Assembly: GCA_037974965.1 (NCBI GenBank)
Contig: JBBPFI010000006.1
Coordinates: forward strand, 1,426,001 to 1,490,000
From: Dacryopinax spathularia
Taxonomy: Eukaryota; Basidiomycota; Dacrymycetes; Dacrymycetales; Dacrymycetaceae
Direction: 5' to 3'
Length of the DNA stretch: 64,000 nt
The position numbers and the translations under genes are program-made. Shown piece by piece: positions 24,174 through 53,322 of the stretch. The notes below the pieces were generated by a model. It saw only the letters and a list, made by a program, of their open reading frames with translations. It was not told the DNA's origin and ran no database searches. Position 1 is the first letter of the stretch, and each line of letters opens with the position of its first letter.

Positions 24174-25032
24174 TTATAGTACGTTTGCTACGTACAGTAT
24201 GAAGTCGGTGTCGCGTCGGGGTGGCATGGGAAGGTGAGGAAGGACGCTTGTTGAGAACGACACGCAGGACGACGCGAAGGGTCTAGCGTGGTTGAGCGTG
24301 ACGACCACGATTGAACGGCATACTGGCCACCAACTCCTAACGGATGCGTTCATTCATGCCTTGAAATGCTACTCAACCCATCGTAGCCGTTCCGTCCAGA
24401 CGGATTCGATATGCTCCTTGTTCTTGAATCTCTTGAATCAGCTTCGTCCAGCAGCTCTCGCTCCTTGCTTCGACGCTCGCGGCAACATCAGTACTGTTAA
24501 CGCTCGCCCCTCACCAATCTGGCAGTGACGGCACCATTTACCCCTCGTCCACAGCTTCTCGATCACCTTAATCCGCGGAGCTGAACAAATGCCATCAGAA
24601 TCCATCGTTCTGGACTCGTTATACCCATGGGCTCGCTTCTGCTCTTGCTCATGATGGACACCGCGTGCTGCACAGCGTGGAACCTCTCAGCCCATGAGCT
24701 CAGGACGAATGTGCTGCTATCTCCGCACGACTTGCTGGTAATCCCCAGGGGCGAGAGTGAGGTGCACCGACTTCATCAAGCCTCATTGAGCTTCTCGTCT
24801 TAGCTGTCTGGGTGAGAAGAGCTTCGCCATTGTTCTACCCTCCCCGCAGGGGACAATTGCTTCTGAGGCCTCGACACAAAACAGAAGTGGTCCAGGTCGC
24901 GCCGTAGCAACCACAAGACTCAGAGCTCTCCCTTCGACAGTCACGAGCCACTGAACGCAAAAGCAGATGGTAAGTCTTCTTTGCTAAATGGGGAATGTCA
25001 TCAGGAAGTACTAACATGGTTCCCAGACGATA
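24174..25032. other. Intergenic, promoter region of the first S33 hydrolase
   Basis: No gene recognised. A possible non-canonical 5' exon of the following gene exists: ATG at 24967-24969 directly before a GTAAGT donor, spliced to ACG ATA ATG at 25027. This would add three residues in frame. Confidence 0.4.
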
Positions 25033-25981
25033 ATGGAAGAGCTTCAGTTCTCCCGCACTGGTTATGCCCCTTTCCGCGGTTACCAAACGTGGTACAAGAT
25101 CTTCGGCTTTCTCCATCTCGATGATGGCAAGACGCCGCTCATTGCTGTTCACGGCGGGCCTGGAGCTGGATGCGGCACACTCGAAGTTCTCGAAAAGCTC
25201 TGGACGACGGCGCGCATCCCTGTGATCGTCTACGACCAGATCGGTTGCGGCCGGTCGAGCCATGCGCCGGACGAACCGCGCTCTACCTGGACGATCGAGT
25301 TCTTCCTTGGCGAGCTGAGCAACCTCATCACACATCTCAGACTGGCGAAGTATAACCTGCTGGGTCACAGTTGGGGTGGTATGCTCGCACTGGAGCACGC
25401 AGTTCGACAGCCGGCTGGACTTCAACAGCTCATCATTGAAGGATCGCCTGCATCGATGGAGCTTTGCATGCAAGTCCAGCATTCTTGCTTTCGCAGTCTG
25501 GGCGAGAAGTACTATGAGGCAGTTCTTAAGCACGACCGCGATGGGACCGAGTCGGAGGACTGGAAGACCGCCAACGACCTGTTCCTCAAGAAGTTCATGT
25601 GTCGTACCGACCCAATACCTCAGTGCGTGATCGACTGCTTGAAGACGCTCTCGGAGGCGTACAACGTGACCGATACGCTGTAAGTCTATCATTCTTACCT
25701 GGTGCGCACGAATTGAACCCGGAGCCAGGTGGGGCACAGAAAAGACCATCGAATGCACCGGTACTTTGAAGGACTGGACGATCATTCCCCGGCTTCATCT
25801 CATTCGCATTCCCGTTCTGGTCCTGACCGGAGAATACGACTACTGTGGAGGAAAGGCCCTCGATCCATTCTTGGATGGAACCATCGACGCCCGATTGCAC
25901 AGGTTCCCAGATTGTGGACATATGGCGCATATAGACGCGGGTGATGACTATATCAACGCAGTTGCGAGCTTTTCGAAATAA
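25033..25981 (+). CDS. Proline iminopeptidase-like S33 hydrolase 1
   Basis: Exons 25033-25679 and 25729-25981 with one 49-bp phase-2 intron; about 299 residues, normal for the family. Alpha/beta-hydrolase features: oxyanion motif HGGPGAG at residues 40-46, nucleophile Ser113 in GHSWGG, acid Asp about 251 in 'EYDYCGGKAL', and His about 278 in 'CGHMAHID'. Peptidase family S33 removes N-terminal proline from peptides, or acts as an amino-acid amidase. There is no signal peptide, so it is probably cytosolic. It opens the central cluster and faces away from the minus-strand neighbour at 26.2 kb. Three paralogues (33.9, 45.8 and 58.7 kb) share the same intron position just before 'WG'. Exact substrate is unknown; action on the D-x-D-x-P-G peptides is inference. 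Confidence 0.88.
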
Positions 25982-26222
25982 AAGATAGTATTCGCCCTAG
26001 TGATTAGGACTTCCTATGGGGTGGTTGTCTCATTGCATAAGATGAATTCGGATTGAATGGCGAGCTGATCTACACATTGTTTACGGCCATCCGCAGGATT
26101 GTGGGGTCTGTTCCAGCAGACGCGCGATGTTGCCCCTCAGGCTCGTTCAACTATAGTCTATGTACGATGCCCTCGCCCGCTCTTGCCCACTCGTTCCACT
26201 CTCTCCTCTATTCGGTGACGTG

Positions 26223-27144
26223 TCATACGTGCCATTGAATCAGCCGTACGCCTGCATGAAGTGTTAAGACTCGTTCACACCTGAGGCGATCAGGCAAACC
26301 TTCGTCTCCGTCATCAATCCCCACGGCCTGCTGAAAGCGCGCTCGACAGAACTCTGTTCCTCGGCACTGCAGCAGGATGGTCTGACTGCCACCCAAGGGA
26401 CAGTCAAATCCGGTTGTAGCGGATATGTTCGACATGCCGAACTCAAGCTGGCCCAGATACTCGCGTCGAGGAGGATGGTGCTTGTAGGAGATAGTTGACG
26501 GGTCTAGCGGGACGCGTGCGTTCGAGACGTTCCATACGGAGACGTAGGGCGGTAGTTGATGCTTAGTCGTGGCTCGAATGTCTTGAGGGGCGAGGACCAC
26601 TGCGCAGACGGTGCTCGGTGCGCTTGTCACTTCAAACTGCATGATGACGTTTTGCTGACGAGCTGGATCAGCACGGACCGCTCTTTCCGACTGTCCGGAC
26701 CGCGCGCACGTAGTGATCCACCGTGATCTCCTCGACACCGTTCCGGCTTTCATTATGGGAAACTGCGGCTGGATGCGCGCGGTCCAACACTGAGATGGCC
26801 GTCGGAGCGCGCGAAGTCACCAGCCCTCTGCCCGACGCATACAGCATGGTGACCGATTGCGCGGACACTCTTCCCTCCGAGTCGAGCTCGGTAGATGGAC
26901 GCATAGTGCCAGGTGGAGACCAGCTGGGGTATGCTGCATTCTGTGCTGGTGCTAGAGTCGCTTTGGCCTGGCTGGTTATCTCCGCGATCTTCCATGACAA
27001 GAGGCATGAGACGCTCAGCAGACACCCAAGGACCAGGATCAACGGCGATACTGGGAGTCTTTCCTCATCGACTTCCGTCGGTTCCTTTCCTTCGGACGAG
27101 GGCTGGGGAAGGCGCTTGTAACGAGTAGTCAAGTTCCACAACAT
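26223..27144 (-). CDS. Single-pass membrane protein of the cluster, family B copy 1
   Basis: Exons 26710-27144 and 26223-26654 with a 55-bp phase-0 intron. A short polar N-terminus (MLWNLTTRYKRLPQP) precedes one membrane helix around residues 33-52, giving a predicted type II protein with a lumenal or outer C-terminal domain. That domain carries the family signature: 'VIMQFEV', 'VWNVSNARVPLDPSTISY', 'HHPPRREYLGQLEFG', 'FDCP', 'LLQCRGTEFCRARFQQ'. Copies 2-4 (29.1, 36.6 and 48.2 kb) share signature and intron position. I do not recognise the domain; the strand pattern with FxCP and a final Cys-x-x-x-[WF]-x-Q faintly recalls But2-like beta domains. The C-terminus of this copy is longer than in the others. 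Confidence 0.75.
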
Positions 27145-28384: not shown

Positions 28385-28395
28385 TATTTAATGCT
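28385..28395 (+). promoter_or_regulatory. Core promoter element of peptide gene 2
   Basis: TATTTAATGCT about 60 bp upstream of the ATG at 28454. The same element (TATTTAAGGCT, TACTTAAAGCT, TACTTAAGCT) precedes the other three peptide genes. Confidence 0.5.
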
Positions 28396-28453: not shown

Positions 28454-28642
28454 ATGCGATTCCAGAACTTGTTCTTCGCGTTCTGCGTTATCAGCTCTGT
28501 TGCTGCAGCTTCACTTCAAGTCCTCACGCAGCGTGCGGGTACGTTCTCCAACCAGTCATCCGACTCCCGACTGACCTTCCTCCCAGAGTTTGACGAACTC
28601 GACGGTGTTATCGTAGCCGATCCCGATGCGCCCGGCGTCTGA
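28454..28642 (+). CDS. Tiny secreted precursor peptide 2 (tail ADPDAPGV)
   Basis: Exons of 85 bp (28454-28538) and 56 bp (28587-28642), separated by a 48-bp phase-1 intron, give 46 residues. Residues 1-19 form a signal peptide (MRFQNLFFAFCVISSVAAA). Exon 2 encodes the 18-residue tail EFDELDGVIVADPDAPGV, then TGA. Exon lengths of exactly 85 and 56 bp are repeated in peptide genes 3 and 4. It sits 0.5 kb upstream of family-B copy 2 on the same strand and about 1.9 kb from a UstYa-like gene, which is why I read it as the substrate of this cluster. There is no Kex2 (KR) site and no CaaX box. An ordinary ORF caller would miss it because of the intron and size. Confidence 0.75.
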   Translation: MRFQNLFFAFCVISSVAAASLQVLTQRAGTFSNQSSDSRLTFLPEFDELDGVIVADPDAPGV

Positions 28643-29124: not shown

Positions 29125-29986
29125 ATGAATGGCTCCTCGAGAGATCAATACCAGCCCCTCCCTACCGCTCCAGAGCAAACACGAATCGAGGAGGTCGATG
29201 ATTCGAAACAGGCTTCCTCGTTGCCGGTCCTTGAGCGCTTTCTTTGGCTCCTCCTCATTAGCCTGTCGCTAGTGACGGCTTGGGTGGTCACCAACCAGGC
29301 GGTTAGAGAACACTTCAAGCTGTCTTCCTCACGCAATGGCGACCTTGCGCATCCCGACTACAATCCGCTTGCTCTCTTCGACCACGCCGCGAGCGGCCAT
29401 GTTATAAGTAACCCAAGCGATGCGATCGTCCCATGGGCTGGGATCCAACCCACATTCTTCGCTCCAACCGCGTATGGCCGCCTGCAGCGATCCCAGCCAG
29501 CTCGCCGCTTCCACAATCGGACGAACCTTCCGGTGGAGAAGGTGCTTCTGAGCGAAGATGTAAGCACCCTCTGTTAGTACTCCGGAAAGTTTGCAGCTCA
29601 GTTGTCCTCAGTTCGGTGCTGTAATGCAGTTCGTGGCAGAAGCAGGAAAGCAGCAGCGCTGCGCACTGGCCGTGTTCCCTTTTCGGAACAGCTCGCTCAT
29701 GGTGGTGAAAGGAGAGGAGCACCACGCACAAGTCTGGGGCGCTTGGCACACGGCTGCCCTAGATCCGTCGACAATCTCGTATCAACATCGCCCAGCTCGG
29801 GGAAAGTACCTCGGTGATTTATACTTTGGCTCTTCAAGAGAAGCCGCTACCACAGTATTTGCTTGTCCCGAGAATGGGATCCTCACCATCCTGCTGGAAT
29901 GCAGAGGTTTACGAGGGTGTCAGATCGGCTGGATGCAATCGATGGACTCTGACCAAACCATTGGATCCGAAATCGTCGGTAAGTGA
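29125..29986 (+). CDS. Single-pass membrane protein of the cluster, family B copy 2
   Basis: Exons 29125-29559 and 29612-29986 with a 52-bp phase-0 intron. I chose ATG 29125 because the paralogues all begin a few residues before a 'Y-x-P-L/V' motif (here QYQPLPTAP); the frame is open upstream to 29023. A membrane helix (FLWLLLISLSLVTAWVV) is followed by a stalk and 'LQRSQPARRFHNRT' and then 'EKVLLSED', where the intron interrupts. The second exon has the shared domain: 'AVMQFVAEA', 'VWGAWHTAALDPSTISYQHR', 'KYLGDLYFG', 'VFACP', 'LLECRGLRGCQIGWMQ'. Predicted type II topology, in the secretory pathway with the UstYa-like proteins. Function not known. Confidence 0.78.
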
Positions 29987-30351
29987 TAAGTAATAAAGCA
30001 CAAACATAAGTGGGCTGATTGGGAGATAGGGCTTAGGTTAGTGCAATGGCAAGTAGATAAGGAGTAGGGTGGACGGCTAGCAAGTTGTCGAGAACACTAT
30101 TCCGCTGCTTGATCAACAAGTTGCCTTACATATGAACTCCCGCACGTCAATCGACCCAAAGTATCACAGGAAGCCCCTCACTCATCTACTCCGTCCACAT
30201 GCATACATATCTTGTAAATATATTCCAACGGTTCAAAATACAAAACGCGGCACGGTCGATATACAGACGAAGTACGAGCCACGCCGAATCATGGGGCGTG
30301 GGTAGTGCGTGCACTACGTGAGGAGTCGCATGCAGTGTCAGGTCTACTACA
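29987..30351. other. Short convergent intergenic region
   Basis: 365 bp between the converging family-B copy 2 and UstYa-like copy 1 genes. Nothing beyond expected 3' flanks is visible. Confidence 0.4.
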
Positions 30352-31108
30352 TTACGCCCAGAATGACTCTTCCAAAGCCTTATACACCTTCGTCCAATCA
30401 CGACACGTATGTAGACTATAGGGGTCAACTGCCGGAAGTCCGTGCAGTCGTGTCTTGACCGGATCCTCTCCATCGAGCGTCGTGTCAGCCGCGCACAGAA
30501 TCCCTTGTAGGATATAGTTGATGCAGTGAGACAAGTGTTCTTTGTCCAGGTTCTCGATTCCGTGGATCAGTCCTTGTCGGAGGTTGTGCAAGCAGTGAAG
30601 CTAGACCTCGTATTCAGCGAATGTTGTTACAAGCTTTGGGTATTTGCGATGCATACCTGGTGGAACATACCGACTACTAATCTCTGCTTGTTGCCGGGTT
30701 CTCCGAGGTAAACATACCCGATGGAGAACGTAGTCAGCGCTTCCCAAGCTGCGATCGACTCAGGCGTATCCTCAAGGCCGTACAACTCCATGTTCTCCGT
30801 GTAGCGATGCAAGACAGCGTCCGGAAAGTCGTCGACAGGCAGTTCTCTAGGCCTGCCGAGCGTATCATCTATTTCACAGTCTTCACGTCAGCTTGCGGAG
30901 GTAGTCAACGCAAATACCAACCAGACTCACCTTGGAAAGTTCGAGTCAAACCGCGATAGGATATCTTCTGAGTGTACACCAGCACAAATGTGTTGTACGC
31001 AGTAAGGATCACTGCAATCAAGAGAATGCATCCTCTGGAGTTTAGAAGGTGCTTCCATCCTGAGAGTTCCAGTATCATAGCGATACGTTCCTTGGGATAA
31101 CCGTACAA
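30352..31108 (-). CDS. UstYa-like (DUF3328) oxidase 1
   Basis: Exons 30931-31108, 30657-30868 and 30352-30600, with introns of 62 and 56 bp. An N-terminal membrane anchor (CILLIAVILTAYNTFVLVY) is followed by 'RELPVDDF', 'LYGLEDTPESIAAWE' and the UstYa hallmarks: HQLHC, split by intron 2 as HQ|LHC, then 'HLSHCINYILQGILCAADTT' and 'HTCRDWTKVYKALE', ending SFWA. Start is 31108 or the internal Met at 31078. UstYa proteins are ER/Golgi-anchored copper-dependent enzymes that oxidatively cyclise or otherwise modify ribosomal peptides (ustiloxin, asperipin, victorin pathways). Both HxxHC-type motifs are intact, so activity is likely. The peptide genes at 28.5 and 39.1 kb are the nearest candidate substrates. 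Confidence 0.87.
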
Positions 31109-31933: not shown

Positions 31934-33580
31934 ATGTCGTTGAATTCCACCGTGAACGCCACCGCGACACTTAACGCGATCCCTGGTTTTGACGGGACTT
32001 GGGACCAGGCTCTTCAAATTACCTGTAAGTTAATTGGCCCGTTTAGCATGAGAACGATAATCAATGTTGACTTGAACCAGGGGCTTCGGAATTCGCTGGC
32101 GTCGCTTCAGCAGCACTCCTTTCTTACGACGTATTCATCACGCTCGAGCAGGAGATTCGTTTGGTATGGTTTGGCCGCTGGGGTCTTCCGTCTATCCTGT
32201 ATATGGTCAATCGCTATGGGACAATGCTGCAAGCTTGCCTGAACCTCATTACGGATATTGATTATGGGCTCTCGCTGCCTGCCTGCCTGTCATGGAATTT
32301 GTTCTATAACTGGAGCATACCTCTCTTTATTGCCGTGATCGAAGGTGAGTACATCTCCTCCCGCTTCCGCGCACTCCTAATGTGGTCATTAGCCACCTTG
32401 ACCCTTCGCGTCATTGCATTATGGGAGAACAACCGCAAGTTTGTTGTGTGTCTCTGGATCTGGTACATTATCAACGTCGCCGTCATGCTCGTTATGATGG
32501 GGCTTACCAACGCAACCGATTACCGTATGCTAAGCACAGGGCCACATGCATTCCTGTTGTACACGTCTAACGGAGTATCACAGCCGGTCCGAGTCCTGAT
32601 CCTCCGATCATAGGATGCACTATCACGGGTGAGTATAGGCTCTCACGCGGACGTCTGAGTGTTCACTGGCACACGTTGATTTAGGCACGGAAAAGTTCGT
32701 TCGTCATTCTTTCACCCTTAGTCGCGACTGATTACCACGGGCCTATCAGTTACTTCTGGGTGGTCTATCTCCCGAGCCTTGTCTATGAAACAACAATTGC
32801 GAGTCTCACACTGTACAAAGCCATTCAGCACAAGCGTCTTCTGCGTAGTGTGCCGCTGCTCTACGTACTTATTCGGGAGTACGTATTACCAAATATGCTC
32901 ACTTGCTTCGGTGCTCATTGCCTTGTACAGCGGTTTCTTTTATTTCTTCAGTACGCGTTCCCTTCTTGGATTTGTAAGGAAACTAATACGTATCTACAGT
33001 TGTCTTCGGTGCGCCTTGTCTGATCATCCTCCCACTCGAAGCTGAATCAATGCGGCTGCCCCAGCGTTGATGGTGAGCGCTACCCTTTGGGTTCTCTACT
33101 GGAATGGCTTATGACGAATGACAGCTGCTCAACATGCTGGTTGACCTATTGGCGGTATGTGTATAAAAGCAGATGTACGTTTCCCTCTCACGCACAACAT
33201 TCAGAACTTCCTCTATTTCGACTGGGCGCCACAGTGAGCACTGGGCTTGTGAGCTCAACCTATGTCAAGTGCTGACGTACCTTATAGACTGAGTGTCTCT
33301 ATCGCATCAGCTGTGTCTGTGAGGTCTGCGGCCTCTTCATGAACATGGCGAGGCGTTGATGCTGACTGTTATCCTTGCGGACAGATTGTTCCTGAATCTA
33401 CGAGATGTGGCTCGTAGTTCCGCGCCAGAAACAGCCATGTCCTTTTCTGGCCCGATCGAGCTGGATCCGATGTCAAATATCACATCCACCCCTTGGACAA
33501 CCCAGCGATCCGAACCAAGCACGGCGGGGTCGAAGTCAGGAGAAGGCGGATATACGTACGAGGAGGGGACAGCGTTCTAA
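31934..33580 (+). CDS. DUF6533-type seven-helix membrane protein 1
   Basis: Multi-exon gene. Firm exons are 31934-32024, 32081-32344, 32393-32524 and 32584-32628; further exons include one from about 32753 ('YFWVVYLPSLVYETTIASLT') and a last one ending 33580. The N-terminus is short, with sequons (NSTVNAT). Then comes the DUF6533 hallmark 'YDVFITLEQEIRLVWFGRWG' with 'ILYMVNRYGTMLQ', followed by further helices ('WIWYIINVAVMLVMMGL', 'FFYFF'), 'LNLRDVARSS' and a polar Ser/Thr-rich tail. The family is huge in Basidiomycota and uncharacterised; topology resembles 7TM receptors. In the cluster it could sense or export the peptide product, which is inference. Splicing of the last third is approximate. 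Confidence 0.75.
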
Positions 33581-33927: not shown

Positions 33928-34881
33928 ATGAGCAACCGTCGTGCCGGCCTCGCCCCGTTCCGCACCTTCCAGACCTGGTATACCGTTTTCGGTGACCTTC
34001 ACGGCGGAAACGGCAAGCTTCCCGTGGTAGTCCTGCACGGAGGTCCGGGCGCCGGTTGTCGCTCCGAAGAAGTCGCCCTTGAAAGCCTTTGGACCACTGC
34101 CGGTATCCCGGTTGTCGTATATGATCAAGTCGGCTGTGGAAGATCTACACCCCTGGACGATCAGCCCGCCGAGTTGTTTTCGGTTCAATTCTACCTCGAG
34201 GAACTAGCAAACTTACTCCAGCACTTGGAGATCAAGGAATACGACCTTCTGGGACACAGCTGGGGCGGTATGCTTGGTCTGGAGCACGCGGCTTTGCAAC
34301 CGGCTGGGCTACGAAAGATCGTGCTCGAATGTGCGCCGGCGTCGATGGAGCTTTGTATGCAAGTTCGGGACGACGTTTATCGGAGTCTGGGAGAGAGGTA
34401 CTACAATGCTGTAGTGCAGCACGACCGCGACGGGATCGTGACCGACGACGTCAACACGGCACGCGAGCTCATCAATTCGCAGTGGAGATGCCGAACTGTG
34501 CCTTTCCCTGCAGCAGTGAAGGAAGTGGCCGACACGTTAAGAAAACCATACCATGTGTGCAATACGATGTGAGTCCACGTGCTCCCGACGACGCAGAGCA
34601 AAATTAGCTGACTGCAGGCGTCCAGGTGGGGTCTGACGAAGATCCTGCAGTGTACCGGCTGCCTCAAAGATTGGACGATCGTCCCCCGCCTTCCGCAGAT
34701 ACACAATGAGGTTCTCGTCATTACTGGCACCTACGATTATTGCGGCAAGCAGGCGTTAGCCCCTTACTTGGAAGGCAACCTCAATGCGAAGTTGGTCACG
34801 TTTGAGAACTGCGGACACTTTGTTCATATCGACGGAGGACAAGCGTATATCTCATGTGTCGTTGATTTCCTACAAGGATAG
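33928..34881 (+). CDS. Proline iminopeptidase-like S33 hydrolase 2
   Basis: Exons 33928-34568 and 34626-34881 with a 57-bp phase-2 intron; 298 residues. The start MSNRRAGLAPFRTFQTWY aligns with those of the paralogues, so I chose it over upstream non-ATG starts. Motifs: HGGPGAG, GHSWGG nucleophile elbow, 'TYDYCGKQAL' acid region and 'CGHFVHIDGG' histidine. No signal peptide. The gene lies immediately downstream of 7TM copy 1 on the same strand and converges on UstYa-like copy 2, whose stop is only 86 bp away. Such tight packing supports a co-inherited cluster. Activity on N-terminal proline is a family expectation only. Confidence 0.88.
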
Positions 34882-34967: not shown

Positions 34968-35652
34968 CTAGGGCCAAAACATATCTTCCAAAGACTTGTA
35001 CACCTTCGTCCAGTCACGGCACGTATGATTGACAAAGGGGCCCGTGCCCGCACGGATGGGCTGGGTTTGCCATTCCAGCGTCGTATCGGCGGCGCATAAC
35101 ACGCCCTGGATGAGGTAGTTCAGGCAGTGACCGACGTGCTCCTGTTCTTCTGCGGTAAGCTGGAAGACCTCCTTCGACAAAGCTTGGTGGAATGTTTCCT
35201 TGAACGACCGCAAGCAGTGCAGCTGGCCAGACTCAGCAACAGGCGAAATGAACCATGCGAACCATCAAACCTGGTGAAACATGCTGATCAGATAGCGGTG
35301 CTCCTCTTCGGGAACTCCATCATAGAGGAACCCGTTATGGTACGAGAGTAGCATGTCCCAAGCGGCGATTGCTTCTGGACGATCGGACAGGCCGAACTTC
35401 GCGTCTTCCATGTAGGGATGCTGAAAAGGCGGGGACAGGTCTACCCGCAAATGATGAGCCGGGTGCTGGCCATTGAGAGCGCCTACGGAGGATAAGCAGC
35501 AGCTCAAGCAGCAGAAGGGGATACGAACCTTTTTCAGCGGACCCAGCGATTATGCGACCCAGATAGAGGAGATCATATGCGTTGAGGAGCGTAGTTATCG
35601 TCAGTAAAGTCAACAGGACGACAACCGAAAGCGAGATCCGGTCTTTCGACAT
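34968..35652 (-). CDS. UstYa-like (DUF3328) oxidase 2
   Basis: Exons 35529-35652, 35271-35482 and 34968-35222, introns 46 and 48 bp. The N-terminus is an anchor helix (LSVVVLLTLLTITTLL). Exon 2 carries 'HHLRVDLSPPF', 'FGLSDRPEAIAAWDMLLSY' and ends at HQ; exon 3 resumes LHC ('HQ|LHCLRSF'), then 'HVGHCLNYLIQGVLCAADTT', 'HTCRDWTKVYKSLEDMFWP' and a stop. All hallmark His and Cys residues are present. The split of HQ|LHC by an intron is the same in all four copies and shows they arose by duplication. It would act in the secretory pathway on the cluster's peptides; that substrate link is inferred. Confidence 0.87.
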
Positions 35653-36582
35653 GGCGTATGTGGTCGGTAATGCGAAGAATTTGCCACGCTCTTAAGCCTT
35701 CAAGACGCGGTTCATTGCAACTGATTGGCAGGTCCGACATCACGTTCATGACCGTATGATACGCAATCAGCCGCCAGTCCTGGCAAGGATAGCGGCTATT
35801 CCCAAAATGAAAGGGTAGTAGATAGAGCACAAGACCCCGAAAAAAGCACGTTCACGGTTCATACGACCATCCAGTCATACAGAAGCCTCTTCCTTCCGCC
35901 CCTGTCGACGAGCGCGGACGAGGAAGGGATGCGATGCCAGCGGTATCAGGCGACAATGGGTGAGCATCATTAGAAAGCCGGTGAAGCAGGAAGGCGGAGA
36001 ATCAGATGGGTGGATTATTCGGGACGTCGTTCAGGTGCTCGATTGTGCGAGTCGCGGTTGGCCAGAACCAGGAAGTTGGCACAATGGGTGCTGGCCGTGA
36101 GATGACGCCCGCGGGCGCTACAGTACCGACTCATAGCAAACTGTACTAGGCCAGCAGCTAGCAGCTCACTAAACGGACAGACGAAGGGACGCAAAGTAGA
36201 GGCCGTTGTTAGTTGGGTGATTGCGTGTCAGGGAGCCAGTTTCAAAGCGAGATGGCCTGCTCGACGCGCTTGACGTTGAGCTCAACGTCAGGGTCGTCGT
36301 GCTCGTCGCGCCTTCGTTTAGACGACGACGACCTTCCCCAAGGAAGTCTCATCTCTACTTACACTCAACTAATCCATACACTAATGTATATCGCTACATC
36401 CTGTCTGGCGAAGCCTGTGCTTGCTTCTGCAAAGTCACCTGCCAGGTCTCGTTCAAATACGCACATCAGAGCGGCCCGGCGCACACCCGCGTTGCTTGGT
36501 CGCCTGAGGATCTTCGCAACTAGCACCTAGTCGCGTCTTCATTCGGCATCCCAGCGCACTAACTGCACGCCTATGACGAAGG
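35653..36582. other. Intergenic, nothing recognised
   Basis: About 0.9 kb between two minus-strand cluster genes. Only short frames; a GAC/GTC-rich patch near 36295-36340 is the only compositional feature. Confidence 0.4.
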
Positions 36583-40593: not shown

Positions 40594-40783
40594 TTAGATC
40601 CCGGGTGAATCGGGATCGGCCCCAGCAGCGCCATCAGCATCGAGCAGGTCTTGGGAGGACATCAATATTGTGCATCTTAGTCGCAAGGTGGAGCATACCG
40701 GCACGCGTCTCATGGAAGACAGCTGGCACGGCGAGGATACCGCCGATGAAGAAGACGGCGACGAGGATTGAGCGCATTTGCAT
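40594..40783 (-). CDS. Tiny secreted precursor peptide 4 (tail ADPDSPGI)
   Basis: Exons 40699-40783 (85 bp) and 40594-40649 (56 bp), intron 49 bp, phase 1; 46 residues. Signal peptide MQMRSILVAVFFIGGILA, then exon 2 tail DLLDADGAAGADPDSPGI and TAA. The acceptor is CCAAG, slightly unusual, but phase and tail leave little doubt. Compared with copy 2 the last seven residues differ at two positions (A to S, V to I). It lies 1.1 kb upstream of 7TM copy 2, on the opposite strand, so the two are divergently transcribed. Confidence 0.75.
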
Positions 40784-41929: not shown

Positions 41930-43617
41930 ATGTCCAACATTACGACTCAAGGACCGTTCGCAATCCCTGGCTTCTCTGGCACATGGGAGCAGGCTATTCG
42001 CATTGCGTGTAAGCCGTCATAGTAGCTTTCCAGAACCTCAGTGCTTATACGTGCTGCAGGGGCCTCCGATTACACCGGGATCTCCTCCGCCGCCTTGCTC
42101 GGCTTTGACTGCTTCATCACTCTCGAGCAGGAGATCCGACTTGTATGGTTTGGTCGATGGGGTGTACCAGCCGCACTGTACATGATCAATCGATATGGAA
42201 CGATGATTCAGGCATTCCTTAACATCGTCACGGACTTGGACTACGAGCTGTCGATGCCGGCGTGCCTCAGCTGGAACTTATTCTACAACTGGAGCATTCC
42301 GGTGTTTATGGCAGTAATTGAAGGTATGTACATCGGAATTGAACGCTTTGTTGCCGTTCTGACTGTCCTTCCAGCAACCTTGACACTTCGGGTGGTCGCC
42401 TTGTGGGAGAACGACCGCCGACTGTGGATCCCGCTATGGACTTGGTATATCATCAACGTCGCAGCTATGATGGTCATGATGGGTCTCACGAATCAAGGGA
42501 CATATCGTAAGCGCCCATAATTGTTCTTTCCTACCAGGGCGCTAAGCCCGGCTATAGCGACTCCCAGCCCGGATCCTCCTACTTTGGGGTGTACTATAGC
42601 TGGTCAGCCTGTCAAACCGTGTCCGTGCTCCATTTCCTAATACTCTCTATCTCTAGGAGCAGAAAGGTATGCGTGATCCTTCCAGGTCGGCTTTCGAGGG
42701 GTGTGCACTGACGCCTTTGCAGCTATTTCTGGGCGATCTATGTGCCAAGCCTGGTGTACGAAACCACTGTGGCGGGCTTGACGTTGTACAAGGCTATTGA
42801 GCATAAACGACTCCTTGCGAAGGTCCCCTTGCTCTATGTATTGATCCGAGAGTGCGTCTCACATTTCTCCCGCTCTACCTTCCTGTGCTCACTATATGCT
42901 CCAATTAGTGGCTTCTTCTACTTCTTCAGTACGTTCTTCTTCCCAGTCTTGCCTGCAGCTGTTACTGACCGATCGTCCAGTTGTTTTCGGTAAGCTGCTC
43001 TGCATTCAGATGGGACCGTTCGTTGACATCATGCACTCTATATAGCCCTCATGGTACGTACCACACCTAAGTCATGTTTCAAATCTGGCTGACGCGTCGT
43101 GTCTTTTGTCAGTTGATCAACACCGTAGTTGACTTGACTGTGGTGAGTCATGCTCGTTCCATTCCGTGGCGCACCTTTCCAACCAATACGGCAGAACTTC
43201 TTGTACTTCGATTGGGCACCGCAGTGAGCATGACCACACTCAAATCAGCTCTAGCATATCTAAACCCATCGGCAGGTTGAGCGTTGCTATTGCCTCCGCA
43301 GTCTCCTGTCGGTAAGTGCATTTGGACTTCTTTCAAAACACATCTCACACATCTTTAGCCTCTTCCTCAACCTACGAGAAACGGCGCACCCGACACATCC
43401 GACAACGGTGTACAACAGCTCCAGACCCTTCGAAATGTCACCAATGACAGCACCGACCATCTCGACCTGGTCCATCAAAGACTCCCAACGGTCTCGGGGA
43501 ATCAACAGCTCCACGGTGGAGAGGGGCGACATGGCGCACGGGGACCAGGAGAAAACGGAGGAGAGCGTATCCTCGTCGAGCGCTGGTGCTCGCAGGGGAA
43601 CGTCCGCCGCCTCATGA
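41930..43617 (+). CDS. DUF6533-type seven-helix membrane protein 2
   Basis: Multi-exon gene from ATG 41930 (MSNITTQGPFAIPGFSGTWE) to TGA at 43617. Exon 2 carries 'FDCFITLEQEIRLVWFGRWG', 'ALYMINRYGTMIQ' and 'CLSWNLFYNWSIPVF'; later exons carry 'TLTLRVVALWEND', 'WTWYIINVAAMMVMMGL', 'YFWAIYVPSLVYETTVAGLT', 'GFFYFF', 'LINTVVDLTV' and 'LFLNLRETA', then a Ser/Thr-rich tail. About ten exons, many junctions aligning with 7TM copy 1. Seven hydrophobic segments are readable. Its closest relative is the pseudogene immediately downstream. Function unknown; a receptor or transporter role is speculation. Confidence 0.77.
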
Positions 43618-44297: not shown

Positions 44298-45224
44298 ACA
44301 TCCAACATATCTTTACCAGGGTCTCTTTCTATCCCGGGCTTCTCGGGCACGCCGGAGCAAGCTGTCCGTACTGCCTGTAAGCCGTCCCACTGAGGCATGG
44401 ACGTCACTGCTGACACTTTGGCCAGGGTATGCCGACTACACTCCGGTTTCTTCTGCAGCCCTGCTTGTCTTCGACTGCTTCGTTACGCTCGAGCAGGAGA
44501 TTCGACTCGTCTGGTTTGGTCATTGGGGTGCACCTGCCGTGTTATACATGGTCAACCGATATGGGACAATGATCCAAGCCTGTCTCGACATTATTCCAAA
44601 TTTGGATTACAAGCTATCAGCGCACTTGTCTCAGCGCCTATAACTGGAGTATACCGATATTCATGGGGGTGATTCAAGGTATGTCATCCTCCCCTGATCG
44701 TCACAATGCGCTCTCCCCACCTCATTTCAGCGGCGTTGGTATGCCCACTATCATAGCTTACCTAGTTTCCTCTCTCGCTGGCGCACTGATGCCAGTTAAT
44801 CACAACTGTTGTGGGAGGGACTGTCGTGAGCGCTACGACGAACGTCAGTCTATACATTCCTTACTAGCAGGATAGAACCTCCAATTCGGCGACTGGACCC
44901 CTCAGTGAGAAATCCAACCCTACTAGCCCTCATATAGCTGAGACGTTTACAGATTGAGCGTCGCTATTGCATCAGCCGCTTCATATCGGCAAGTTGGCCA
45001 CTGATCCACCTGCTATCCCGATATAACACTACCTCAGCCTCTTCCTCAACCTTCGAGAGACCGCTCAGCCGACCCACCCAACGACTGCCTACAGCGGCTC
45101 AGTACCCTTCGAGATGTCCGCCTTGGAATGCTCGACCTTGTCGGCCTGGACGGACGGGTCTTCGGGACGCTCTGCCAGAATTGACAGTTCCGCCATGGAG
45201 GAGGGCGATGTACTGCACAGCTAG
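44298..45224 (+). pseudogene. DUF6533-type 7TM pseudogene (copy 3)
   Basis: Tandem relic of copy 2. The start codon is lost: the expected ATG before TCC AAC reads ACA at 44298-44300. The second exon is recognisable ('FDCFVTLEQEIRLVWFGHWG', 'VLYMVNRYGTMIQAC') but after 'LDYKLSAHLSQRL' a small deletion shifts the frame into TAA. The conserved 'YNWSIPIFMGVIQ' continues in another frame. The middle helices (exons for TLTLRVVALWE, WYIINVA, YETTVA) are missing. The 3' end is kept: 'LFLNLRETAQPTHPTTAYSG', tail and stop near 45224. It cannot make a seven-helix protein. Confidence 0.8.
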
Positions 45225-45781
45225 CAGGAAAATACTGCGCACTCAAATACTAGGAACACTCCGCCCACTGCAGGAAACCCCACGCCAAATGGGAGGATGC
45301 GAATCTCTCCATAGTCTGGTCATTTCGCTGGTCCATGAATTTCTCCTTTCAGTCGGTAGTGCTTATTAAATTGAGCGAGCTGAACCTGGCAAGGGGAACC
45401 TAGCTGAAGTCGGATCCACTGCGAAGCCTAGAAGCCAGCCGGCCATCCGGAAGCGAACCTCCATACCCGCGGCGGTGAGCGTTTAGCAGCTCGTTCCGTT
45501 GCTTCCATCAGAACCTTACCAAAATTGGCAATGATTGAGCTAAGAATTTGCCAGCGTTTCTGGAGTCCTTCTTCCCATGCTGTGCCAATCCGCGATGTAC
45601 CAATCGCTGGCTGCAGGGAGGGCAAGGCGAAGGCCGGCCAGCTTGGTTTCCTCAAATAGTTGCTGCTTCGCAGGTTGCAAGCTCTCGATATCGCACAACT
45701 TGCTCAAGAGAAAAGGATCTCAGCGTGGGTTGCTAGTATGGTATGGTGAAGCGTGTATTGATGTTTGCTCAGATCCGCGAC
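45225..45781. other. Intergenic, promoter region of S33 hydrolase 3
   Basis: No gene recognised. In-frame sequence from an ATG at 45743 precedes the chosen start of the hydrolase and ends in TTTGCTCAG, which could also be a splice acceptor. Confidence 0.4.
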
Positions 45782-46782
45782 ATGTCACATCCTGCGCCTA
45801 TCCGCACGGGTCGCGCTCCGTATGGCGCATACGAGACTTGGTACATGATCTTTGGCGACCTGGAACCTACGTCCGGCAAGCTACCTCTTATAACCGTTCA
45901 TGGCGGTCCTGGAGCTGGATGTGGCACGCTTGAGGTTCTCGGCAAGCTCTGGGTAACTGCGGGCGTGCCGGTGGTGGTGTACGATCAGGTCGGCTGCGGC
46001 AGATCTACTCATGTTCCTGATGCACCGTCGGAGACCTGGACTGTCGACTTCTTCCTGGAGGAGCTCAAGAACCTTTTAGCTCACCTGAATGTTCAATCAT
46101 ATGACCTGCTTGGACATAGTTGGGGCGGTATGCTCGGTCTGGAGCATGCGGCCCGACAGCCAACTGGATTGCGAAGGCTTATCATCGAAGGTTCACCGGC
46201 CTCCATGGAGCTCTGCATGCAAGTTCGAGACGATGTGTACAGAAGCCTTGGCGAGAAGTACTACCAAGCCGTCTTGAGGCACGACAACGATCAGCTGAAA
46301 ACCTACTACGCTGCTGATGCGCATCAAGCTACGGAGGAGGCCGACAGGAAGGATTTGGACGAAGCTCGCGCTCTCTTCACTGCCCGGTACATGTCTCGTA
46401 CGAAACCACTTCCGCAGGTTGTTGTGGATGTCTTGAATACGCTGGTGGCTGCTTATAATGTCTGCGATTCCTTGTGAGTGATCTCTTTCCATCTTCGGAG
46501 TTCGGGACTTACCATCTCGTCAGATGGGGTCTGACAAAGATCCTTGAATCGACTGGCAGTCTGAAGAATTGGTCCATCATCCCACGTCTGCATCTTATCC
46601 GGAACAAAGTTCTTGTCATAACCGGCGACTGGGACTACTGTGGAGGCAAAACGCTTGAACCATACTTCAAAGGCGGATTAGCCGATGTTCGTATGATCAC
46701 CTTCGGCGACTGCGGGCATATTGCCCACATAGACGCAGGAGACGAGTACGTTGCGGCGGTTCACAATTTCCTAAAGGAGTGA
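45782..46782 (+). CDS. Proline iminopeptidase-like S33 hydrolase 3
   Basis: Exons 45782-46473 and 46524-46782, intron 50 bp, phase 2, same position as in the paralogues. Start MSHPAPIRTGRAPYGAYETW fits the family; an in-frame ATG at 45743 adds 13 residues. Motifs: HGGPGAG, GHSWGG, 'DWDYCGGKTL' and 'CGHIAHIDAG'. It has a charged insertion of roughly 15-20 residues in the lid region ('LKTYYAADAHQATEEAD') absent from copies 1 and 2, which may alter substrate access. No signal peptide. It lies between the 7TM pseudogene and UstYa-like copy 4, all on the plus strand. Confidence 0.88.
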
Positions 46783-47216: not shown

Positions 47217-47981
47217 TTGCATGAATATGGAACAGCAACTACCTTTCAAATATCCTCGATGCACCATGGAACTGAACGACCAATGGCTGTATATCGCTGT
47301 TTAAGTCCGCTTCTGTGGCTGCTTGTCCTCCTTACATTCCTTAACGGGATTGCCATACTCCATTTGCATTCGCTTCTCGTGCACCAACGGGATCCTGACA
47401 TGAGTAAGGGATTCTTCGTGTCTGCTACATTCCTGCTGATCAGGCTCGTAGGAGGAGATGAGGAGCATGGCATGCTCGCCGAGCTGCCCGTCGACCTTAC
47501 GACCACCTTCCTGCACCGCTACAGCGACAATTTACCTCTTCTTGGTCTTGAAGATACGCCTGAATCCGTCGCGGCCTGGGAGGACCTCTCCTCGCCAACC
47601 GCGGGGTACGTCTATTTTGAGACTGAGGGAAAGAAGCACCGCTACATTCCTGCAATGTTCCACCAGGTGAGCAGCCCGCGCCATCAGAGCTTTGCGGTTC
47701 GATTGATGACACGCTGGCCCGATCAGATCCATTGTCTGCGCAGCATCAAACGGGCACTGCAGAGCAACTCCAGCTATACCGGGGATCAGCACCTCGGACA
47801 CTGCTTGAATTACTTGGTGCATGGAGTGCTGTGCGCGGCGGATATGACATTGGAGGGTGAACAGCAGCCGGTCCATCTTCTCCCCGATGGGCTTCCTAGC
47901 CTCGGTACCAATGGTACAGCCCATGTGTGCCGGGATTGGACAAGGGTTTACAAGGCTATGGAGGCTCTGATTTGGCCGTAG
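47217..47981 (+). CDS. UstYa-like (DUF3328) oxidase 4
   Basis: Spliced exons 47217-47403, 47452-47666 and 47727-47981. Both introns (48 and 60 bp) are multiples of three without stops, so the unspliced frame is open and looks like one 254-residue ORF. The paralogues show that splicing is correct: it joins HQ|IHC and removes an insertion. Features: anchor helix (LLWLLVLLTFLNGIAIL), 'AELPVDLTTTF', 'LLGLEDTPESVAAWED', HQIHCLRSIKR, 'HLGHCLNYLVHGVLCAADMT', 'HVCRDWTRVYKAMEALIWP'. The start may be a later Met (MAVYRCL). It is followed closely on the same strand by family-B copy 4. Confidence 0.86.
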   Translation: MHEYGTATTFQISSMHHGTERPMAVYRCLSPLLWLLVLLTFLNGIAILHLHSLLVHQRDPDMSKGFFVSATFLLIRLVGGDEEHGMLAELPVDLTTTFLHRYSDNLPLLGLEDTPESVAAWEDLSSPTAGYVYFETEGKKHRYIPAMFHQVSSPRHQSFAVRLMTRWPDQIHCLRSIKRALQSNSSYTGDQHLGHCLNYLVHGVLCAADMTLEGEQQPVHLLPDGLPSLGTNGTAHVCRDWTRVYKAMEALIWP

Positions 47982-48241: not shown

Positions 48242-49110
48242 ATGTTCAAGTCTAACGCGAGTACAGGATATGTACCAGTGGCAAAGTCGTCGGATACCGA
48301 GTCCATCGAGGGCGGCGAGCCGCTCGTACCGGAAGCTGCACGGTCGAATGGCACGGTCGTCTTGCTCTGCATTGCGATCGTCGTCTCGTGCTTGAGCTTA
48401 CTTCGGGCTGGCGTCACCATATACGCTTTCGAGGGTCGGGCATCAAGCCCGGCGGTCGCCGCGTCCTTCCCTAGTGTCGCTCCTAAGGGCACCCTGGGCT
48501 CGCCGTTCGAGTACGAGGATGGAGATCGCGTGCCGCAGCAAGAGCTCGTCTCGGCCGGGACGTTGGCCGCTGCAGAGCCGGACTCCTTGAGGTTCTCTCA
48601 ACCAGCGTCGATTGCGGTTATGCAGCGCTCGAAGCCGTACGAAGTGTTGTACAACGCGACCCATAGAGACATGGGGAGTCTTTTTCTGAATTATGATGTG
48701 GGTGTGCCACGTCGCCGGCGCTACGGGACGAGCTGACGAGCGTGCTAAAGTACAGCGTCATCATGCAGTTCGCAGCACGAGCAGATAGAAAGACGCACTG
48801 TGCGGTCGCCATGCACACATCGCAGTCGGACAACAAGGTGGAAGTGCTGTCCACCCAGCATTTTGCGCAAGTCTGGAATATGTCTCTCACCTCTCCGCTC
48901 GACCCCTCTATCATCTCCTATATGCACCGACCACCCCGAAGACAGTTCCTCGGCGAGCTAGACTTCACAGTTCAGAACTTCACTAGTACCAACGCGTTCC
49001 ATTGTCCGACGAGAGGAGAGATTACTGTGTTGATACAGTGCCGTCAGAAGATGGAGTGTGGTATACGGTTTCAGCAGGGAATGGAAGGACACGCTAGAAG
49101 TCGCGGTTAG
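48242..49110 (+). CDS. Single-pass membrane protein of the cluster, family B copy 4
   Basis: Exons 48242-48697 and 48751-49110, intron 53 bp, phase 0. N-terminus MFKSNASTGYVPVAKSSD, membrane helix (VVLLCIAIVVSCLSLL), stalk, 'IAVMQRSKPYEVLYNAT', then the intron after 'LFLNYD'. Exon 2 has 'YSVIMQFAA', 'VWNMSLTSPLDPSIISYMHR', 'RRQFLGELDFT', 'AFHCP', 'LIQCRQKMECGIRFQQ'. It lies 260 bp downstream of UstYa-like copy 4 on the same strand, a pairing that supports a joint role. Domain not recognised. Confidence 0.78.
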
Positions 49111-49598
49111 CTCACTATTCTGCGGCATATGGGATGAAAGGTGCTCACTTTGATCCAGGCGTACAGCTTGTTGAGTGGGACTAGCTGGCTTCGTACTGTA
49201 ACCGTGCGAGGGTGCAAATTCCTCGGGTCCCATCTATCGGCCACCAGGAAGGAGGGATGGCCACCTATCCCCTTAAGACTGCGTAGAATTCAGAGGCGGG
49301 ATAAGCAGAGGCAGTCATGGCTGTGGGTAGAGGACCAGCGCTGGACAGAGGAAGCTCGTAGATATGGATTAATTCATGCAGTATATTGTAGGAGAGTACC
49401 GAGACCGTCGTTGTCGACGACCAAAATGTGGAACGGAATCAAGCCGTTGATCTGTGGGGACCGGGTACGGGCCGGCAACTTCCCCGCATCACCATCCAGT
49501 CCGCACGACATGTCTTTGCATCACTTGACCCTCAAAACGTCGCGATCCGTCTACTCGCCTCATCTCACAAGCGGGGCCACGACCGTGGACTTGATACT
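49111..49598. other. Intergenic, nothing recognised
   Basis: About 490 bp. The reading frame of the following dehydrogenase is open upstream to 49428 but lacks homologous character there. Confidence 0.4.
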
Positions 49599-50940
49599 AT
49601 GGCAAAGAGTGAAGGCTACAGTCGTGCAAAGCTCGATGATGGGGACACGTACGCCAAGACGCAACAACGCCTAGCGAGCATCCAGAAGCACTTCTGGGAA
49701 GCACCGCGCGGGGAGAAACTGAAGGGCAAGGTGTGCATCATCACCGGTGTGGGCTCTCTCAAGGGTATTGGGTGCGTGCCATGATAGAGGGGTGGGATGG
49801 ATGGCTCTAATATCTACTCCAGGCGAGCATCGGCATTCCTGTATGCACGGGAGCGGGCAGCACACCTCTACCTGCTGGATTTCGATGGGACCAACCTGCC
49901 AAATCTAAAGGAGGAGCTGAGGAAAGCATATCCAGATGTGAAGGTGCGCCTTATTCGATGTAGATCTGCGTATATATGCTCAAGCCTGTAGTAGGTCACG
50001 ACGTTTCAAGGCGACGCAGCGGACGAGGACCTCATCGCACGGATATGCCAGCAAGCTATTCAAGAGGAGGGACGGCTGGACGTGTTCTTCGCCAATGTAA
50101 GTGCTGGTCAACTTGTCACAAACGCGGTTAACCTGATATGATTCAGGCTGGAGTAGCGACGGCTCACTTCTTACCAGACATAACCTCCAAGGAGTTCATG
50201 AACACGCTGCGAATCAACACCCTTTCTTGCTTCCTTGCCGTCAAGCATGCATCCAAGGCGATGAAGCACACCGGGCCGGGCAAGGCAGAGGCTGGAGGCA
50301 GCATAATCCTCACTGCATCTGTGGCTGGACTGCGATCAGGAGCTGGCACAATCGATTGTATGTCCTTTCTCCATGGTTATTAGGCATTCAGCACCTCTGA
50401 CACCCAGGACAGACAGCGCAAGTAAGGCAGGAGTGAACTCGATTGCCATGACCTCAGCCTACCAGCTGCAACGAACGAACATCCGGGTCAACTCGATCTG
50501 CCCAGGACTGATTGAGGTACTATGAGTGATGTAGTTACTCTGACTGTCAGGCTTGCTGACTACTGGACAGACGGGAATGACGACGACTACATTTGACTAT
50601 GCACGGTCGAGGGGCACCGGAGCGAAGCTAGGCCAGCTCAATCCTATGGGAAGATATGGAATCTCGGAGGGTGCGTTTGGTCTTCGTGCCTTTATGCAGT
50701 ACATAGCTGACATCCTCATAGAGGTACGGTTAACACTCCGGCAATGGACGAGTCTCACTAACATTCCACTATAGATCGCGCAAATGGCTCTGTTCCTCGC
50801 ATCAGGTACGTTGCAATTTGCCCTGACACATGCGTACTTACCCGCCGTCAGATGACGCAAGCTACGTCAACGGGCAGAACATAGCTGTGGATGGTGGCCT
50901 GTCAGCATCGCATCCCGTTGTCCCAGGGAGGTGGGCGTAG
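49599..50940 (+). CDS. Short-chain dehydrogenase/reductase (SDR)
   Basis: About seven exons from ATG 49599 to TAG 50938-50940. The first exon contains the Rossmann start 'KLKGKVCIITGVGSLKGIG' (TGxxxGxG, interrupted by an intron at GG|G). Then come 'LYLLDFDGTNL' (acidic end of strand 2, suggesting NAD preference), 'GRLDVFFANA', Ser in 'ILTASVAGLRSG', catalytic Y-x-x-x-K in 'YSASKAGVNSIAM', 'IRVNSICPGLIE|TGM' and C-terminal 'YVNGQNIAVDGGLS'. An intact classical SDR of about 300 residues, the only one in the cluster. It could reduce or oxidise a hydroxyl or keto group on the product or be a bystander; nothing here decides. Confidence 0.85.
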
Positions 50941-51739
50941 TGATTGAGCATGAGAGAACTGAATATATGGGCGCTATCATTGCAGATAAGTGGTTAGCTA
51001 CTCTGTTTCGGGACGACGCGTTATCAGATTGCTTTTCTCGCATCGCCTTCTGAGGAGTTGACGCCGACCGATCGCACCGAAGATATCGCCCTTTCCTAAG
51101 ATTAGCACCAGCCGAATCGGTTGGGCCCAGCCTGTCCTGCTTCCCTAACGAGCGTGGAGTATGATCGCGAATCGACAAACGTGCCCAAAGGACTGAAACC
51201 AGGAAGTAACTCAGCACGGGGGACGTTGCGGAACTGCTTTACCCATCATCTGGGCGTTGATGCAAAGGCAGTGTTAGCGACCAAGCGATGAGGCCTCTTC
51301 ACGATCAGCCCTTTTCGGGAGCGACGGCAATTACTTGCACACAGACGCAGCTGGTGCAGCCCGATATACTCGCCTTCTGCTGGCCCGACGCATGTCATCA
51401 TGAGGTCTCGGCCAAATCGGATCCGCCGATCAAAGCGTTCCCAGTTACAGGTATGTCCCTACCTAGTATGGAAGTGGACCAACAATTTGCTGCAGTCATC
51501 AACTCCAAGCAATCAGGACGTCAAACTGCCACGGAGCTACCTTGCGATTGACTCCAGTCGCGGATGATCAAGACAATGCTATGGACTCTCGGATCTTCCT
51601 CAATACCAGCGTCTCATTCGAACCCGATCGCGGTTGTCTGGTCGATGGTTCATATATCAACGTCAGGCTGGATTGTTATTATTATTGCTGAGTAGGGGAC
51701 CGACCTCGCAGACTCCGTCGAACCACAACGCCTCCACCC
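50941..51739. other. Intergenic, nothing recognised
   Basis: About 0.8 kb with short frames only; holds the promoter of 7TM copy 4, including a TGACTC word near 51549. Confidence 0.4.
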
Positions 51740-53322
51740 ATGAACTCCTCAAACCCTGTTTCCGAGTTGTCCTACACAGGATCGGTGGATGATGCCATTC
51801 GCATCCTCTGTGAGTCGATGGGCCACGCAAGTGGATGTGATGACGAACTGTTGACCCTTTCATGTTAGGGACAGCAACCTACCTCAGTGTCGTCTCGGCT
51901 GCCCTGGTAACCTATGACTGCTTCATCACACTCGAACAGGAAAGTAGACTGGTTTGGGGCGGGACGCGAGGATTTCCGGCCTGTCTCTACTTTCTCAACC
52001 GTTACGGTATGGTGATCCAGGCATGCTTGAACTTAGTGGGAGTTCTCGACAATAGCTTGGATATGACCGCTTGCAATGCTTGGAACGTTCTCTCCTCCTG
52101 GAGCGTACCGATCTTCCTGATCATTGTAGAAGGTGAGCACATTTTCCTCTCAATGGCCTCTGTGCCTGACGGTTGTCCAGCCATGCTTGCACTGCGCGTC
52201 GTTGTCCTGTACGGGAACAAGCGCATAATGGCCATCATCGTATGGACGCTCTGGACGATAGCGTCGGCAACTATGCTTGCTCTGATGGGGCTCTCCTTAC
52301 AAGACACTTCCGGTCAGATTCCTGAGATTCTGCATTACTCTGTTGTTCTGACCGGCGTCGAAGGTCTGCCAAGCCCAGCTCCCACCATCATGGGATGTCA
52401 GCTAGTTACCGGTAGGCCGCACATCGCTCATGGTTCGCACTTCGCGGGTCTGATTGCTCTGACAGATAGCTCCATGACGTGACTCAACCGCCTTTGTTTC
52501 TAAGATCGGTCCGAGACTAACTGTGGGCAGGAGCACCTACACACTCTATATACCGAGCTTGTGCTTCGAAACGGTTGTTGCACTACTCACCTTGCGGAAG
52601 GTTATCGCCTACCGTGCCATCCTGACAGATTCGCTGCTGCTGCATACTCTTATTCGAGAGTACGTCCGAATTGAATTTCTGTTCCGACTTCGAGCTTATC
52701 GCAAATGCAGTGCGTTCATCTACTTCTTCGGTATGCAAGTATCATAATATGCCTGTTGAGATTCGTTCATATTTTCTCCAGTAATCTTAGGTTCGTTATA
52801 CGCTCTGCCGTTGCGCGCACCTAGCCACCAACTGTTCGATCACCGGCGCTCAGGTCTCATGGTAGGGGAACAGTAGACCTGCACAGCAATGTTGGCTGAC
52901 GGTCTTTCATTCTAGCTTGCTTCACTTTTAGGTGCTGTCTTTGCTGTAAGTAGTTGCACTTCGCTAGGCGATGGCGGGTTCTTAAGCGTGTCGACAGCCG
53001 CAAATCTACGTATCCTGGTTTCCACAGTAAGTTGCTCGATCGCTTGAACTCGTCATCTCAATCAGTTGGGGCAGGATCAGCATCACGTTGGCTTCCATGG
53101 CGGCCGTGAGGTACGGTGCGCGACGAGTGTCAACAGATAGGAAGGCTGAGCGGCCTTCCCAGGCTCTTCCTCAACTTGCGACAGACCGCCATGGAACGCG
53201 GTTATATGGATCGCGACGAGGCGGAGGGAGGGAGATTACCATCTGCCGCGGAAGACTCATCCAACTTCGATATGTGGACTGGACGAAGCCATGTTCTGCC
53301 AGTTGAGGCCGTCGCTCAATAG
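51740..53322 (+). CDS. DUF6533-type seven-helix membrane protein 4
   Basis: Multi-exon gene from ATG 51740 (MNSSNPVSELSYTGSVDD). After a 59-bp intron the DUF6533 core reads 'YDCFITLEQESRLVWGG' with 'CLYFLNRYGMVIQACLN', then 'WNVLSSWSVPIFLIIVE', 'LALRVVVLYGNKR', 'YTLYIPSLCFETVVALLT', 'AFIYFF' and 'LFLNLRQTA', with a short acidic tail ending at 53322. Junctions match copies 1 and 2. It is the most diverged of the set: GRWG is replaced by GTRG and the tail is short. It marks the right end of the cluster. Confidence 0.72.

Follow-up and report, generated by a model that had tools for sequence, protein, structure and literature searches.

The window analysed here is a stretch of 64,000 nucleotides from Dacryopinax spathularia, corresponding to positions 1,426,001-1,490,000 of contig C6 in a genome of 29.2 Mb and 24 contigs. 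It carries a cluster of small secreted-type peptide genes together with genes for UstYa/DUF3328 proteins, single-pass membrane proteins (family B), S33 peptidases and DUF6533 membrane proteins. Genes were predicted with a splice-aware gene finder whose training set was the window and twenty 10-kb segments of this genome. The cluster genes were checked by hand using intron borders and paralogue comparison, and the splice sites are model-based. The spliced models gave 19 genes in five families and one short-chain dehydrogenase/reductase (SDR) gene, as well as one truncated DUF6533 remnant (Table 1, in gene order). All models had canonical introns, except for one exon border of the SDR gene. A MYST-type acetyltransferase gene precedes S4. 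An earlier note on this DNA had described a five-family cluster with one SDR, which the spliced models and profile matches confirmed. The four UstYa-like paralogues of that note, and its three tiny secreted-type peptide genes with a fourth at 20 kb, are likewise present (U1-U4, p2-p4 and p1).

Table 1. Genes and remnants of the cluster in the order of the contig (window positions unless marked C6), with the two upstream peptide copies last.
Gene	Family	Position	Strand	Remarks
p1	Peptide precursor	19978..20189	-	50 amino acids (aa), 2 exons; tail DQDWPGI; tail match C6:1445978
S1	Proline-iminopeptidase-like S33 hydrolase	25033..25981	+	299 aa, 2 exons
B2	Family B, single-pass membrane protein	26223..27144	-	272 aa, 3 exons; But2-like C-terminal domain (below cut-off)
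p2	Peptide precursor	28454..28642	+	46 aa, 2 exons; tail DPDAPGV
B1	Family B	29125..30067	+	279 aa, 3 exons; no Pfam match of its own
U1	UstYa/DUF3328	30352..31078	-	202 aa, 3 exons; HQLHC + HLSHC
T1	DUF6533 membrane protein	31934..33580	+	332 aa, 13 exons
S2	Proline-iminopeptidase-like S33 hydrolase	33928..34881	+	298 aa, 2 exons
U2	UstYa/DUF3328	34968..35652	-	196 aa, 3 exons; HQLHC + HVGHC
B3	Family B	36539..37459	-	272 aa, 3 exons; But2 E 0.0035 (below cut-off)
U3	UstYa/DUF3328	37843..38547	-	201 aa, 3 exons; HQLHC + HLSHC
p3	Peptide precursor	38983..39173	-	46 aa, 2 exons; tail DPDCPGI
p4	Peptide precursor	40594..40783	-	46 aa, 2 exons; tail DPDSPGI
T2	DUF6533 membrane protein	41930..43617	+	349 aa, 13 exons; 67% identical to T1
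Remnant	DUF6533	44301..45245 (about)	+	similar to T2 only in residues 2-115 and 265-333; lacks the middle part
S3	Proline-iminopeptidase-like S33 hydrolase	45782..46782	+	316 aa, 2 exons
U4	UstYa/DUF3328	47283..47981	+	212 aa, 2 exons; HQIHC + HLGHC
B4	Family B	48242..49184	+	278 aa, 3 exons
SDR	Short-chain dehydrogenase/reductase	49599..50940	+	single copy in cluster; one exon border non-canonical
T4	DUF6533 membrane protein	51740..53322	+	315 aa, 13 exons; intron pattern as T1/T2
S4	Proline-iminopeptidase-like S33 hydrolase	58660..59603	+	296 aa, 2 exons; possibly bystander
p5, p6	Further peptide copies	C6:1,396,572 and 1,397,561 (region C6:1396572-1397584)		28-29 kb upstream of the first base of the window

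The peptide genes p1-p5 follow a common plan: a hydrophobic-type N-terminus, a single intron in phase 1 and, encoded by exon 2, a tail of 17-19 residues (counted by hand). Five of the six peptide genes encode 46-55 amino acids and have one intron. A hydrophobic segment of 19 residues was found in p1-p4 by hydropathy scan, and p5 has a similar N-terminus by eye. Lys is absent from p1-p5, none of the five has a dibasic pair, and no repeat was seen by eye. Past the last Arg, 19-23 residues remain, 5-7 of them acidic and none of them Lys or Arg. The monoisotopic masses calculated for this portion in unmodified form are 2406.086 (p1), 1927.905 (p2), 2351.020 (p3), 1739.785 (p4) and 2369.012 (p5).

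The tail D-x-D-x-P-G-(I/V) followed by a stop codon had seven matches in the whole genome, while a reversed-pattern control had none. Six of the seven are located within about 70 kb of C6, four of them in the window (p1-p4) and two upstream (p5 and p6). Among the upstream copies p5 appears intact, and p6 has no in-frame start codon ahead of its hydrophobic stretch. The seventh match, on C10, is inside an acidic run with no family-like start by eye and looks unrelated. Because the pattern was built from p1-p4, the first two bases of the fixed codons were set by the search, and the independent evidence is what p5 shares beyond the tail: this copy, found by the search, has an MQFR-type hydrophobic start, the phase-1 intron and a VIVADPD string in common with p2. 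Across the six tails the third positions vary in all four invariant codons, and all three stop codons are used. Both the strict pattern and a looser one also accept TGG in place of the stop, which is used by none of the seven strict matches. These features support a real conserved peptide family, apparently found only along this part of C6. Further copies were sought with the looser pattern and rejected: it gave 24 matches against 15 in its reversed control, and the 17 extra ones (16 elsewhere in the genome, one on the opposite strand about 10 bases from p4) are only as many as the control predicts. Between p6 and the window (C6:1,399,085-1,426,000), the genome-wide searches list no UstYa, family-B, S33 or strict-motif match.

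U1-U4 score 53-70 bits with the Pfam model PF11807 (cut-off 25) and are 39-49% identical to each other. In the genome at least five UstYa matches were found, of which four are in the window; this count, like those for family B, S33 and DUF6533 below, is a lower bound. The fifth match (C2:2,919,689) has a kinase-like reading frame, named by eye, next to it in its 3-kb locus. Both HxxHC motifs are kept in all four window copies and in the C2 copy. Searches with the UstYa profile found no homologue in viral contigs, and the UstYa and family-B profiles had no match among solved structures. A recent study presents CctR, a DUF3328 protein, as a copper enzyme acting on inert C-H bonds; its HxxHC motifs form a copper site at the dimer interface, with two copper ions per monomer, and the enzyme is inactive when they are substituted (PMC12435403). 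The same study suggests that the C-terminal domain, which follows a single membrane helix, faces the lumen. The motifs of U1-U4 support the view that these proteins keep the residues that bind copper in a characterised DUF3328 enzyme. In Pleurotus, 16 UstYa-like genes are reported, six of them developmentally expressed (PMC8893723).

The earlier note called the four single-pass membrane paralogues of family B unrecognised. The four paralogues stand, but three of them have a sub-threshold match to the But2 C-terminal domain (PF09792) at E up to 1, the best being 18.2 bits (E 0.0035) against a cut-off of 24.2. A But2 profile search of the genome gave no match, and the controls of that search were equally silent. 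Like U1-U4, each of B1-B4 has one N-terminal hydrophobic region in the hydropathy scan, and the topology of both families looks like that of type II membrane proteins. The distal domain of family B is conserved, with 28 invariant positions in exon 2. The structure model of this domain is strand-rich, with a mean pLDDT (predicted local distance difference test) of 59, and is too poor for a fold search. The paralogues are 30-40% identical, and B1 and B3 were grouped in a small tree with support of 92/92. The genome search (E up to 1) found at least five loci, four in the window and the fifth on C2. The sole UstYa match and the sole family-B locus found outside the cluster, at C2:2919689 and 2987820, are 68 kb apart.

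The S33 proteins resemble proline iminopeptidases. S1 matches alpha/beta hydrolase and S33 models, and S2 aligns over nearly its full length with solved proline iminopeptidases (best E 4.5e-54). With the NCBIfam model TIGR01250 (cut-off 167.65), for which S2 and S4 were scanned, S4 is above at 184.2 bits and S2 below at 149.1 bits. GxSWGG, YD/WD-xCG and GH motifs were seen by eye in S1-S4, and we take them to hold the Ser-Asp-His catalytic residues. No hydrophobic segment was found in S1-S4 by hydropathy scan. For S1 an alternative start at 24967 would need a first exon of 3 bases. The search of the genome gave at least nine S33-like loci (19 matches, grouped), four of them in the window. Three S33 genes and a fourth at 58.7 kb are thus present as first described, but S4 and the SDR may be bystanders. 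S1-S3 are 54-63% identical to each other, while S4 is 40-44% identical to them, no closer than a C9 homologue to S2 (41%). The membership of the SDR is also uncertain.

T1 and T4 match DUF6533 (PF20151, cut-off 24.1) with 56.2 and 55.5 bits, and T2 and the remnant were above the cut-off in the genome search. T4 is 41-42% identical to T1/T2, and it is slightly nearer to them than a DUF6533 gene on C2 is (156-170 versus 122-136 summed bits). The remnant has no ATG where T2 starts. Three seven-transmembrane genes plus a pseudogene had been proposed; the genes T1, T2 and T4 and a truncated remnant are there, but hydropathy resolved only some of the seven helices, and the seven-transmembrane topology follows the published description of a relative, SNB1 (PMC10949477). 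The same source describes DUF6533 as basidiomycete-specific. At least 54 matches were found in the genome, four in the window and 50 elsewhere. A single array of 0.47 Mb on C5 (C5:1183807-1655290) holds 34 of the 54, and no UstYa match is on C5.

UstYa, family-B, S33 and peptide genes are multiplied and interleaved at the locus. From S1 to T4, leaving aside the SDR, only two of 17 adjacencies join members of one family (hand count), against about 2.7 expected by chance; the families are thus intermixed rather than grouped in runs. The order B-U-T-S-U is seen twice, as B1-U1-T1-S2-U2 and as B3-U3-(p3, p4)-T2-(remnant)-S3-U4. An origin by duplication of a tandem block was rejected, as the longest common subsequence in family order was 5, which 49% of 20,000 shuffles equalled; the earlier statement that gene order is scrambled therefore stands. 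The small U and S trees were not resolved. In eight paralogue pairs the proportion of nonsynonymous differences (pN) was 0.23-0.43 against a near-saturated synonymous proportion (pS) of 0.72-0.83, which means that the copies are old and under purifying selection. It had also been suggested that near-equal copy numbers mark a functional set. DUF6533 is so large genome-wide that its four window copies are weaker evidence of such a set than those of U, B and the peptides. One could suppose plain tandem expansion with no common pathway, in which a region prone to duplication collected unrelated, rapidly evolving accessory families. One copy is truncated and the family order has no significant tandem-block pattern, as such a history would allow; but three of the five families (U, B and peptides) hardly occur outside this part of C6, single-family runs are few, about as in a random order, and the paralogues are under purifying selection. 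We consider this explanation very improbable.

Some other features of the window were recorded. A tRNA gene, probably containing an intron, is between p3 and p4 at 39788-39874 (+). A diverged minisatellite of TCAGGCTACAAC-like units occupies 13343-14403. A 594-residue open reading frame at 17085-18869 (-) has an integrase core domain (PF24764, E 2.7e-53) and is perhaps from a transposable element.

The locus was compared with known systems. The dikaritin clusters (ustiloxin, phomopsin, asperipin-2a) also have double-HxxHC UstYa/DUF3328 genes beside secreted-type precursor genes, and peptidase-like genes. In contrast to them, the precursors here have a single core and lack repeats and dibasic Kex2 sites, the peptidase belongs to the S33 proline-iminopeptidase-like type, no tyrosinase or methyltransferase was present among the scanned proteins, and the But2-like and DUF6533 membrane proteins are extra. 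An ordinary dikaritin was therefore rejected on the type of precursor, and the locus was classed as a UstYa-associated variant. Kex2-processed repeat proteins (KEPs) of Agaricomycetes are alike in their secreted-type short-peptide precursors, and some KEP genes adjoin DUF3328 genes; they differ in their repeats and dibasic sites, which are absent here. The B mating-type locus also mixes multi-copy small peptide genes with genes for multi-pass membrane proteins. A CaaX-type end is the rule for mating pheromone precursors. The peptides here have a hydrophobic N-terminus and lack such an end: they finish in PGI or PGV, and the only ones with Cys at position -4 are p3 and p5, where Pro-Gly comes next. 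UstYa, S33 and family-B genes are additional. Since STE3 matches were found on C9 only, a mating-type B locus was rejected. Finally, SNB1 (Snowball) of Coprinopsis cinerea is a DUF6533 membrane protein, but the part of the source available to us describes no UstYa or secreted-peptide link for it (PMC10949477). Among the matches listed from open-access full text, whose coverage is incomplete and where no query joined all three, no paper combines UstYa, S33 iminopeptidase and DUF6533. The cluster appears to be an undescribed system that makes peptides and possibly serves in signalling.

We propose, at about an even chance of being right, that the locus encodes small secreted peptides and the machinery modifying them, that is, an oxidised secreted-peptide pathway. 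The precursors of 46-55 amino acids would enter the secretory pathway through their hydrophobic N-terminus. A short pro-part would then be removed, probably by cleavage after a lone Arg. The resulting acidic peptide, some 18-23 residues long, would keep the natural C-terminus D-x-D-x-P-G-(I/V), which is conserved among the copies. The UstYa/DUF3328 proteins, with their copper-site residues, could act as membrane-anchored luminal copper oxidases on the peptide, by hydroxylation, cross-linking or another oxidation, with each paralogue perhaps matched to its own peptide. From its topology and co-amplification, the But2-like family B may be an accessory or substrate-binding partner of UstYa. The S33 enzymes, which have no hydrophobic N-terminus, might trim or degrade peptides in the cytosol. 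The DUF6533 proteins might receive or export the product, which is the weakest step. The RiPP (ribosomally synthesised and post-translationally modified peptide) or signalling interpretation of the earlier note is thus supported in part: the peptide family is conserved, the UstYa proteins keep copper-site residues and the U, B, S33 and peptide genes are multiplied and interleaved, but the precursors are not those of an ordinary dikaritin.

Several observations weigh against this proposal. Cyclochlorotine is a non-ribosomal peptide. It is the compound on which the DUF3328 enzyme CctR acts (PMC12435403), so that UstYa genes beside small peptides are no proof of a RiPP. Umemura (2020) found DUF3328 genes next to no more than 103 (6.1%) of 1680 repeat precursors from basidiomycetes (PMC7329392); precursors without repeats, as here, should escape such a screen. 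There is no Tyr after the last Arg in p2-p5, and Tyr is the cross-linked residue in ustiloxins, phomopsins and asperipin (PMC9233826). The promoters of 20 cluster genes compared with 44 others had no common 7- to 9-mer; 27, 30 and 12 of 30 permutations were equally good for 7-, 8- and 9-mers, respectively. Moreover, p1 and both upstream peptide genes are at some distance from the genes for the enzymes: about 5 kb separate p1 from the closest of these, and p5 and p6 adjoin transporter-like genes, named by eye.

The distances, the lack of a common promoter word and the case of CctR would also fit an explanation in which UstYa, S33, SDR and family B modify another substrate, such as a peptide from a different source, while the small peptides are separately amplified neighbours. 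Against it, U and B genes alternate with p2, p3 and p4 within the 28 kb, and outside C6 the strict motif occurs once only, in a sequence unlike the family by eye, with the extras of the looser pattern at control level. In addition, the largest gene model of the window has 964 residues, too small for a non-ribosomal peptide synthetase. We regard this explanation as unlikely, yet deserving of attention.

An oxidised secreted-peptide pathway may also be extended to signalling, with the DUF6533 proteins as receptors for the modified peptides in a ligand-receptor repertoire like a pheromone/receptor locus. The neighbourhood makes them possible receptors, as T1, T2, T4 and the remnant stand among the genes for the peptides and enzymes. 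In addition, the highly similar T1 and T2 are under purifying selection, and SNB1, with a predicted extracellular N-terminus, is reported to be needed for fruiting-body patterning in Coprinopsis cinerea (PMC10949477). On the other hand, DUF6533 is not known to have a receptor function, SNB1 is reported to fit no G-protein-coupled receptor class (PMC10949477), and most DUF6533 matches of this genome are elsewhere, many of them in the array on the UstYa-free contig. So we hold the receptor explanation to be improbable. Equally doubtful is its fuller form, a non-mating ligand-receptor system in which secreted acidic peptides with a free, conserved C-terminus D-x-D-x-P-G-(I/V), oxidised by UstYa copper enzymes together with a But2-like partner, would be sensed by seven-helix DUF6533 proteins and the S33 enzymes would end the signal.

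We know of no substrate for any basidiomycete DUF3328 member. The locus offers exact candidate substrate sequences and a C-terminal signature which can be searched genome-wide. It also places members of the orphan DUF6533 family next to candidate UstYa substrates, which makes two open questions directly testable. If the ligand-receptor reading were true, a first class of ligands would be known for the large orphan DUF6533 family.

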